A stretch of 64,000 nt of DNA from Halorubrum ruber. Lineage in GTDB: Archaea; Halobacteriota; Halobacteria; Halobacteriales; Haloferacaceae. The stretch is from assembly GCF_018228765.1 (NCBI RefSeq), contig NZ_CP073695.1, forward strand, positions 1,550,001 through 1,614,000, read 5' to 3'. Position numbers and translations under genes: made by a program. Below are positions 490 to 34,738 of the stretch, one piece after another; within the stretch, counting starts at the first letter, position 1, and the number at the start of each line of letters is the position of its first letter. Below the pieces are notes generated by a model. The model did no database searches and was not told the DNA's origin. It was given only the letters and a program-made list of their open reading frames with translations.

Positions 490-518
490 CGGATCGCGTT
501 CGCACGTCGATTTACTAC

Positions 519-742
519 TTATAAATGGCTGATCGCGGATCGGCGGAGAACACCTCCAAAGCCATAGCCGCTCGCTTATAAATGGCTGATCGCGGATCGA
601 CGGCGAACACCGCCAAAGCCCCAGCCGCTCGCTTATAAATGGCTGATCGCGGATCGACGGCGAACACCGCCAAAGCCCCAGCCGCTCGCTTATAAATGGC
701 TGATCGCGGATCGACGGCGAACACCGCCAAAGCCCCAGCCGC
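519..742 (+). repeat. 57-bp tandem repeat, about 3.9 units
   Basis: Units begin at 519, 576, 633 and 690, a period of exactly 57. Each starts TTATAAATGGCTGATCGCGG and ends in the box CCAAAGCCCCAGCC. Units 2 and 3 are identical. Unit 1 differs in a few bases, including a GGAG/CTCC pair replaced by GGCG/CGCC in the others, which keeps a small stem. The last unit runs directly into the large hairpin of the dispersed element. The TTATAAAT core resembles a haloarchaeal TATA box, so each unit could act as a promoter. Confidence 0.95.
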
Positions 743-992
743 GAGGCCGCCGTACGCTCGTTGCGCTCCTCAGTCGCTCGCTTCGCTCGCTCCCTCCGGT
801 GCTTACGTCGCCTACGGCGGCCTCGCGGCTGCCCCTTTGAGTCCCACCCGCCCGCACAGCGACCGCACCTCACGCCTCCCCAGCCTCGTCAGTCGCCGTC
901 GCTTCGCTCCGGCGACTGACTCCCTCGCACGCGCTCCTCGCGGTCGCCGGGGGCGACCGCTCGGAGGCGCGCGCCACCGCATCGGTTTAAAT
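519..992 (+). repeat. Dispersed three-hairpin element, copy 1
   Basis: The order is the 57-bp units, then hairpin H1 with arms 738-754 and 813-829 (17 bp perfect), a conserved TGCCCCTTTGAGTCCC box, H2 with arms 888-898 and 910-920 (11 bp), H3 with arms 941-948 and 952-959, the box CGCGCCACCGC, and a TTTAAAT end near 986-992. The same order occurs in three other places in the window. It fills the space between two genes, and no protein is supported in it. Confidence 0.9.
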
Positions 993-2570: not shown

Positions 2571-2918
2571 CCTGTGGTCGCGGTGGCGCGTGCCCGCGAG
2601 GCCGCATCGCGGCCGAGCGGCACGCGCGAGGGAGTCGGCGGCGACCGTCGGGAGCCGCCGACGAGGCTGGGGAGGCGCGAGGTGCGGTGCGGTCGCGGGG
2701 CTGTGCGGGGCGGGATTCAAAGGGGCAGCCGCGAGGAGACCGTAGGCGACGCAAGCACCGCAGCGAAGGAACGGAGTGACTGAGCGAGGAGCACAGCGAG
2801 CGTACGGTCTCCTCGTGGCTGGGGCTTTGGAGGTGTTCGCGGCCGATCTACGGTTAGTCATCTGTAGCCGAGCGACTGGGGCTTCGGTGGTGTCGCTCGC
2901 CGAGTTGTCTGATTTAAA
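2571..2918 (-). repeat. Dispersed three-hairpin element, copy 2 (minus orientation)
   Basis: The element lies reversed relative to copies 1 and 3. H1 arms are at 2728-2744 and 2803-2819, complementary at 16 of 17 positions, with a different sequence from the other copies. H2 (arms containing GTCGGCGGC and GCCGCCGAC) and a short H3 (GGCCGC and GCGGCC) lie before 2700. The 57-bp unit side (2820-2918) is degraded: one good unit plus one diverged unit ending in TTTAAA. It occupies most of the gap between bax1 and elp3. The remaining 2919-3087 holds only the elp3 upstream region. Confidence 0.85.
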
Positions 2919-12198: not shown

Positions 12199-12283
12199 GC
12201 GTGGGTAGCCAAGCCAGGCCAACGGCGCAGCGTTGAGGGCGCTGTCCTGTAGAGGTCCGCCGGTTCAAATCCGGTCCCACGCA
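12199..12283 (+). tRNA. tRNA-Leu (anticodon GAG)
   Basis: The acceptor arms GCGTGGG and CCCACGC pair, with discriminator A. The anticodon stem CAGCG/CGCTG encloses loop TTGAGGG with anticodon GAG. A long class-II variable arm (TCCTGTAGAGGTCC) follows, then the T arm GCCGG TTCAAAT CCGGT. No intron is seen and CCA is not encoded. A TATA-like TTTTAATT lies at 12153-12160. The 12284-12424 spacer downstream holds a short hairpin (GGTGTTGTC / GACAGCACC) and no gene. Confidence 0.95.
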
Positions 12284-12424
12284 TCGCACGGGGTACACCC
12301 CCACGATGCACGGTGTTGTCTACACGACAGCACCCACGCACAATTCCTTTCGATGCTACGCGAGAAGTGACAAGTACGATCGGAACGCTGTGGTCGTGAA
12401 CACCGCCGACGTCCCAGTCGATTG

Positions 12425-12827
12425 TTTATAAATGATTACTCGCGGATCGGTGGTGAACACCGCCAAAGCCCCAGCCGGGAGGGCGGCGCACGCTCGCTGC
12501 GCTCCTCGCTCAGTCGCTCACTCCGTTCGCTCCTTCGCTGTGGTGCTTGCCTCGCCTGCGCCGCCCTCCCGGCTGCCCCTTTGAGTCCCGCCCCGCCCCG
12601 CACAGCACCACCGGAAGACGGTCCTGCTTGCTCGCTCCGCTCGCTGCGCGGGCTGCGACTTCCGTACTCCCGTTCGCTCCCTCCGGTCGCTCACGGGACC
12701 GCAGCCTCACGCCTCCCCAGCCTCGCCGCTCACGCCCTGCGGGCGTTCGCGGCGTCCCTCGCGGGCTGGCTCGCGGCCGCCGGTGGCGGCCGCTCGCAGG
12801 CGCGCCACCGCACTGTGGTTTATAAAT
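12425..12827 (+). repeat. Dispersed three-hairpin element, copy 3 (cleanest boundaries)
   Basis: The copy is bounded on both sides by TTTATAAAT (12425-12433 and 12819-12827). It has one 57-bp-type unit, then H1 with arms 12474-12490 and 12557-12573 (17 bp perfect, but a different sequence from copies 1, 2 and 4), the TGCCCCTTTGAGTCCC box, H2 (CGCCGC/GCGGCG with inner ACGCCC/GGGCGT), H3 (GCGGCCGCC ggt GGCGGCCGC) and the CGCGCCACCGC box. It fills the space between tRNA-Leu and gatE. Confidence 0.92.
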
Positions 12828-31504: not shown

Positions 31505-31578
31505 TGGGCCAACACGGATTTGAACCGTGGACCTCCCGGTTATCAGCCGAGCGCTCAACCTGACTGAGCTATTGGCCC
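31505..31578 (-). tRNA. tRNA-Ile (anticodon GAT)
   Basis: On the minus strand the acceptor GGGCCAA pairs with TTGGCCC, discriminator A. The D arm is GCTC..GAGC, the anticodon loop CTGATAA gives GAT, and the T arm is CCACGG TTCAAAT CCGTG(T). No intron, CCA not encoded. Confidence 0.96.
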
Positions 31579-34322: not shown

Positions 34323-34688
34323 TTTATAAATGGATCCGCGGTGGCGCGTGCCTGCGAGCGGCCGCCGCCGGCGGCCGCGAGACAGCACGCGCGAGGGAGT
34401 CGCTGGTCCGGAGCGCAGCGGAGGACCAGCGACGAGGCTGGGGAGGCGTGAGGTGCGGTGCCGTGCGGTCGGGCGGGACTCAAAGGGGCAGTCGCGAGGC
34501 GGGCGCAGGCGACGTAAGCACCACAGGGAGCGAACGGAGTGAGCGACCGAGGAGCGCAGCGAGCGTGCGCCCGCCTCGCGACTGGGGCTTTGGAGGTGTT
34601 CGCCGTCGATCCACAGTCATCAATTTATAAGCAAGCGGCTGGGGATTTGGAGGTGTTCGCCGTCGATCCACGGTCGACTATTTATAAA
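34323..34688 (-). repeat. Dispersed three-hairpin element, copy 4 (minus orientation)
   Basis: It begins TTTATAAAT at 34323-34331 and ends TTTATAAA at 34681-34688. H1 arms are 34491-34507 and 34566-34582 (17 bp perfect, with their own sequence). H2 has arms GTCGCTGGTCC and GGACCAGCGAC, and H3 GCGGCCGCC and GGCGGCCGC. Two 57-bp units lie at the right end, with TTTATAA at 34624 and 34681, exactly 57 apart. It fills most of the 34288-34738 gap. Confidence 0.92.
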
Positions 34689-34738
34689 CGGACGACCGAA
34701 TTCACGGAGCAATCGATCCCGCGACTAAACACGACTAT

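Follow-up and report, generated by a model that had tools for sequence, protein, structure and literature searches.

The window, i.e. the whole stretch of 64,000 nucleotides from Halorubrum ruber analyzed here, contains four copies of a dispersed element. Read in the orientation of its box, TGCCCCTTTGAGTCCC, each copy consists of 57-bp units (one to several, reading TTTATAAAT ... CGGCGAACACCNCCAAAGCCCCAGYCG), hairpin H1, the box, a C-rich linker with CTCCCCAGCCTCG that joins the box to hairpin H2, H2 itself and hairpin H3, with CCCTCGCGCG located between H2 and H3 and GCGCCACCGC following H3. The strand that folds is opposite to the box strand and reads GGGACTCAAAGGGG...GGGGCTTTG, and TTTATAA motifs are found beside most copies. 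The features are as follows (positions in the window, strand, description; all H1 hairpins were located with a covariance model).

518..745, plus: copy 1, tandem array of four 57-bp units, all containing TTATAAAT and a CCAAAGCC(CC)AG motif, with a variant in the first
725..845, minus: copy 1, H1 hairpin, folded strand minus
831..846, plus: copy 1, box TGCCCCTTTGAGTCCC at the foot of H1
888..920, minus: copy 1, H2 hairpin
925..980, minus: copy 1, H3 hairpin, ending with GCGCGCCACCGC
2580..2630, plus: copy 2, H3 hairpin
2634..2662, plus: copy 2, H2 hairpin
2712..2832, plus: copy 2, H1 hairpin, folded strand plus
2833..2918, plus: copy 2, remnant of another 57-bp unit
12392..12460, plus: copy 3, degenerate 57-bp unit and TTTATAAATG leader
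12461..12589, minus: copy 3, H1 hairpin; its site, between tRNA-Leu and gatE, is filled in most congeners sampled
12598..12707, no strand assigned: copy 3, additional inserted hairpin module in the interval between box and H2
12725..12753, minus: copy 3, H2 hairpin with a TC/TC internal loop (G.A on the folded strand)
12761..12811, minus: copy 3, H3 hairpin
34338..34392, plus: copy 4, H3 hairpin
34399..34433, plus: copy 4, H2 hairpin
34475..34595, plus: copy 4, H1 hairpin, folded strand plus
34596..34690, plus: copy 4, 57-bp units with ATTTATAA

The original prediction, which had placed four copies at these positions with this order of parts, is thus confirmed, with H1 scoring 118–138 bits in each of them, and the arm sequences quoted for H1 and H2 are exact. 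Three details require amendment: (i) eight rather than seven of the 17 H1 arm positions vary among the four copies, (ii) the common order of boxes and hairpins holds, with copy 3 carrying an extra module, and (iii) the box strand is not the strand that folds. A tRNA-Leu gene called by ARAGORN (∼12199–12283) adjoins copy 3; at the Rfam gathering cut-off the only tRNA in the window is located at 31505–31578, and this tRNA-Leu is absent. Small two-hairpin modules of ∼45–65 bp, which have variable paired arms of their own together with constant linkers (e.g., CGTTCGA-hairpin-TCGTGATGACGA-hairpin-TCGAACCACG), are inserted across genera at recurring points in H1 or beside H2/H3 (L011, L019, L027, L028, L048, L013, L015 and L045; in other genera L249, L270 and L298), and may represent SMR-like elements.

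On the host chromosome (one contig of 3,021,820 bp) the box, allowing up to one mismatch, occurs 189 times (100 forward, 89 reverse), while a reversed-box control pattern has no match there. Detailed analyses were performed for 149 of these copies, which were taken with their flanks. The lengths of H1 are discrete, ranging from 94 to 112 nt between CAAAG and the box and being longer where inserts are present, and each copy comprises 1 to 8 of the 57-bp units, spaced by exactly 57 bp in 164 of 179 cases. H2 yielded 98 distinct sequences as extracted, and those cleanly cut are mostly perfect or near-perfect palindromes. Mean identity among 125 aligned copies is 82%, and 15 of the 21 model matches obtained in 64 kb of the host plus 377 kb of relatives exceed 100 bits, the remainder being fragments, insert-bearing copies or chance matches. 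The copies are old, diverged and mostly intact, unlike decaying MITEs.

The exact box was detected in all 32 sampled genomes of the genus and in none of 360 others. A genus-specific element must nonetheless be rejected, since the structure is order-wide: covariance model R1 identifies H1 in 140 of 214 sampled genomes of Halobacteriales, representing 54 of 73 genera, and in none of those sampled from the same phylum outside this order. A two-box pattern applied to 84,980 species with one genome each matched at least 120 stretches, and the 80 matches listed are all from Halobacteria. The full H3-H2-H1 architecture is likewise encountered in other families (L236, L247, L248, L252); H3 and H2 precede H1 on the folded strand in Halorubrum and some other lineages, while in many genera H1 stands alone or forms inverted doublets with a dyad spacer of ∼33 bp (18 in one orientation, none in the other), a short-spacer arrangement that is not the usual host form. 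The element is therefore an order-wide haloarchaeal family of non-coding elements, with H1, a hairpin of ∼100–130 nt, as its conserved core. The original statement that it belongs to no described family holds for (i) the 4227 families of Rfam, none of which matches the element at or above the gathering cut-off in the window, the other-genus loci or the plasmid leader discussed below, (ii) IMG/VR, searched with the two-box pattern, (iii) 50,697 phage records, and (iv) the open-access literature, where sequence-word searches retrieved nothing matching the element. A viral origin is not supported by the searches of IMG/VR and the phage records.

Selection acts on the structure of the element while its letters drift, a conclusion of which we are practically certain. 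In the host alignment of H1 (125 copies, not fitted to a covariance model), covariation runs from the base to the apex: 96.8% of the cells are paired and 24 of 38 pairs have changed on both sides, whereas a control with slid partners gives 29–43% and 5–7 pairs, respectively. Across genera, 33 of 38 pairs have changed on both sides and 92.6% of the cells are paired, as compared with 66% after shuffling. An R-scape-like test of our own (G-test with APC, the null being obtained by re-dealing substitutions on a FastTree tree) identified 6 pairs as significant in the host and 20 among 75 copies from other genera, whose alignment was fitted to the covariance model and thus leans towards it; all 26 are helix pairs. 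The E-values are rough, since copies that undergo gene conversion do not obey the assumption of a tree. H1 moreover folds 4–9 standard deviations better than shuffled sequences. Chance palindromes are ruled out by the slid and shuffled controls together with the tree-based null, and the selection on structure that had been proposed from four copies is thus strongly supported.

It had also been anticipated that copying of one arm from the other might mimic such covariation. Paired changes would then arise without selection, by template switching or inversion within a hairpin combined with gene conversion between copies. These events do occur: part of one arm has been converted to the complement of the other in L028, H2 modules differ wholesale between orthologous copies, and at the tRNA-gatE site of L202 (G400) and L212 (G392) the interior of H1 runs opposite to its base, which indicates that inverted arms do recombine. 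They are rare, however, and the almost constant mismatches (CCC/CCC, TC/TC and the like) would not survive such copying, nor does it account for the 6:1 excess of wobble pairs on one strand. As a general explanation it is thus very improbable.

This wobble excess also reveals which strand is selected. In the host, non-standard pairs on the strand opposite to the box comprise 44 G.U and 7 A.C, and in the other genera the folded strand likewise exhibits 77 G.U versus 19 A.C. Mutational strand bias is rejected as the source of the asymmetry, since the unpaired columns go the opposite way (on the box strand, C>T 110 and G>A 48). Calculated fold energies favor the folded strand in every copy tested; its constant internal mismatches are tandem G.A in 5'-CGAG, 3x3 GGA/GGA and GGG/GGG, and most of its loops have the form C(GNA)G or C(GNYA)G. 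A box-strand RNA with UNCG loops is rejected by the wobble asymmetry and the type of mismatch. We hence conclude with high confidence that selection keeps the fold of this strand and not that of the other.

Whether the original alternative of an RNA or a DNA hairpin recognized during mobility can be narrowed further depends on the loops, and here the answer is partial: one strand is selected, and the loop types lean towards single-stranded DNA. On the folded strand, GNA accounts for 59 of 76 triloops in host H1 and for 40 of 59 in other genera, while the complement TNC is encountered 0 and 1 times. GNRA is the usual choice for RNA tetraloops, while in DNA, GNA and GNNA are known from biophysical work as stable loop types. 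Among 40 tetraloops, 32 are GNNA, and their third base is a pyrimidine in 29 (GNYA) and a purine in 3 (GNRA), which tentatively favors a single-stranded DNA hairpin over RNA. Telomeres of Streptomyces provide a structural parallel, as their DNA palindromes fold into a series of hairpins that carry GNA loops and sheared G.A pairs and show compensatory changes in the arms (PMC7205883); those are located at replicon ends, however, and the present element is internal and dispersed. On balance, we consider DNA somewhat more probable than RNA.

Against this must be weighed a structured non-coding RNA that would correspond to the folded strand (in the order 5' H3-H2-box-H1 3'), would act in trans and would have been amplified in the way of HEARO and other repeated RNAs. 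The covariation exceeds phylogenetic expectation, as is demanded of structured non-coding RNAs, and does not by itself separate RNA from single-stranded DNA. Covariation with G.U on the folded strand, the TTTATAA motifs flanking most copies, and tandem G.A loops, which are stable in RNA too, all agree with an RNA, and with RNA energy parameters the full covarying hairpin is the minimum-energy fold, whereas with DNA parameters the apex is not fully paired. Likewise, HEARO and OMEGA RNAs resemble the element in having many copies, a complex fold and an intergenic location. Yet GNRA is nearly absent (3 of 32 GNNA loops), the observed TATA spacing would put the transcription start inside H3, H1-only copies in other genera are devoid of an evident promoter, the folded strand on plasmids is antisense to the leader of a gene, no related Rfam family exists, and an association with TnpB/IsrB was not seen at chromosomal copies. 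We thus regard such an RNA as rather doubtful.

None of the 149 host copies overlaps a called gene (using a simple gene caller of our own); they are flanked by convergent (50), tandem (38 and 32) or divergent (24) neighbors, show no bias of orientation relative to neighboring genes (82 versus 88), and do not cluster by leading or lagging orientation along the host chromosome (runs z=1.3). With only 9 of 149 copies near a tRNA, tRNA targeting is rejected, as are TTTATAAA as promoters of neighboring genes, which lie beside gene ends at least as often as beside starts. An element useful to its host in the manner of BIME/REP sequences, be it for 3' end protection, as a bidirectional terminator or as a topoisomerase or nucleoid site, would be in line with the strictly intergenic location, the twofold excess of convergent over divergent sites and the intact state of copies at conserved positions. 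It is nevertheless unlikely, for random orientation to transcription combined with selection on the fold of one strand is not what a transcript-level or strand-symmetric role predicts.

Gain and loss between species lend some weight to mobility. Congeners have between 2 and 153 exact-box copies. At the tRNA-Leu to gatE site, ∼22 of 30 congener loci contain the element, whose arms vary in sequence and remain paired in almost every case; two other sites, W1 and W2, are filled in far fewer species. Close host pairs (<1.2 kb) are inverted in 7 of 8 cases with the sides carrying the 57-bp units facing each other (e.g., 2470754/2471184 and 378410/378850), the reverse of the facing in the other-genus doublets. 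Strand-specific hairpins are usual for Y1 elements. One may hence propose a non-autonomous mobile element, similar to PATEs, REPINs or MITEs, with hairpins that are recognition sites for a transposase and with no gain for the host. The inverted H1 doublets recall REPINs, which are dispersed extragenic palindromes often forming inverted doublets with a short spacer (PMC3116915), although H1 has 100–130 nt and free arm sequence in place of a conserved ∼20-nt word, and no RAYT (Y1 transposase) neighbor flanked by the element was found in the host genome. Haloarchaeal PATEs and SMR-A are likewise short, non-coding, rich in palindromes and devoid of a transposase, and small elements insert into their palindromes (PMC3119063). 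SMR-A in particular (∼110 bp, terminal inverted repeats, no target duplication, located in PATE palindromes; PMC3119063) resembles solo H1 in length and inverted ends; both families were compared by description only. The palindromes of PATEs resemble IS605 ends, and the ends of the host IS605 are unlike the element. The single host Y1 transposase belongs to this IS605 tnpA/tnpB pair, near which no H1 box is located, so that an IS605 origin in the host is not supported. The neighbors that recur look like ordinary shared synteny with no transposase recognized, many copies are common to several species, and at the loci compared no parent transposon, exact empty site or target duplication was recovered, their flanks being too diverged. 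A subclass of copies with much longer common flanks on both sides (TACGTCGTGAGTG..., ...GATCTGCGATACTCACTCCC) and hints of inverted ends, found in the host near 530428, 650809, 1166818, 1324456, 1614934, 1879202 and 2568039, possibly represents a larger mobile unit. The non-autonomous mobility suggested originally is therefore consistent with gain and loss between species, while the rarity of decayed copies does not fit it and a mobilizing enzyme was not found. As a full account, mobility without host gain appears no more probable to us than the RNA; it can be compatible with a single-stranded DNA fold.

A further indication comes from plasmids. A query with solo H1 retrieved 31 plasmid records, haloarchaeal among the matches listed, with nearly all matches in unannotated gaps. 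On all seven annotated plasmids, from the seven genera Halobaculum, Halomarina, Halorarius, Haloprofundus, Halopiger, Halobiforma and Natribaculum, H1 is located 477–559 bp upstream of a gene for a conserved protein of 286–298 residues. For the C-terminal OB fold of this protein, matches were obtained with replication factor A (NF005553, E 2e-15; the score is under the curated cut-off) and with solved OB folds, among them that of an archaeal SSB (1o7i, E 0.0015). High-coverage matches to the gene occur on 150 plasmid records, and 179 of 293 Halobacteriales genomes contain it. It is absent from the host genome with its 189 element copies, and the protein is thus not needed in the same cell. Among 29 further loci with enough flank, the leader is conserved in all, and H1 or a diverged H1 was recognized in 22 (20 by the model, with several matches weak singly at E 0.001–0.03, and two by eye). 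Across plasmids of many genera, H1 or its diverged form lies 435–600 bp upstream of the RPA/SSB-like gene, and at every site with H1 (7 of 7 and 22 of 22) it is on the template strand. The leader itself (∼450–560 nt; L394–L400, L402–L431) is highly structured, conserved and devoid of an Rfam family, and for the H1 strand of the 637-nt leader of L394 the fold is 7.0 standard deviations below shuffled sequences, as compared with 4.9 for the opposite strand. An archaeal TATA box was not recognized inside H1.

This geometry is that of Frpo/ssi, single-stranded DNA promoters and priming sites upstream of SSB genes on conjugative plasmids (PMC11541004, which cites work of Masai and Arai 1997), where a template-strand hairpin is likewise located upstream of the gene for a single-strand-DNA-binding protein on large plasmids. 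The present element differs in being archaeal, in having no -35/-10 mimic and no recognized TATA box, in its distance from the gene, and in possessing hundreds of chromosomal copies without SSB-gene placement. The resemblance, which concerns the plasmid copies only, is therefore a lead and not a demonstration, and we put forward an Frpo/ssi-like role tentatively.

Taken together, the best explanation, which we hold at slightly less than even chances, is that the folded strand acts as a single-stranded DNA hairpin recognized by its shape, which on plasmids has the placement of Frpo/ssi sites, the chromosomal copies being shape-selected relatives. Several observations weigh against it: the full covarying fold is obtained with RNA and not with DNA parameters, the chromosomal copies have no preferred orientation relative to genes or along the chromosome, the host lacks the RPA-like gene, no TATA box was recognized in H1, and no insertion with exact ends was recovered. 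A strand exposed by transfer, replication or a mobile intermediate would form hairpins with G-N-A caps and stacked sheared G.A pairs, whose shape a protein may recognize for priming, for transcription start on single-stranded DNA, or for cutting and joining. The dispersed chromosomal copies would have spread long ago, and selection on shape together with exchange between copies might have maintained them since.

It is then tempting to speculate, though with considerably more doubt, that haloarchaea have their own kind of start site on single-stranded DNA, strand-specific hairpins at which synthesis on plasmid strands entering the cell is primed or promoted, and that up to ∼190 scattered copies per genome are still being selected for shape. 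We know of no archaeal site at which single-strand synthesis starts on plasmids, and this step would thereby become accessible to experiment. The covariance model can be used to annotate thousands of loci. If our reading is true, the element would rank among the most abundant non-coding elements of a whole archaeal order, hitherto unnamed, and would provide a clear case of covariation that may indicate a fold of DNA instead of RNA.
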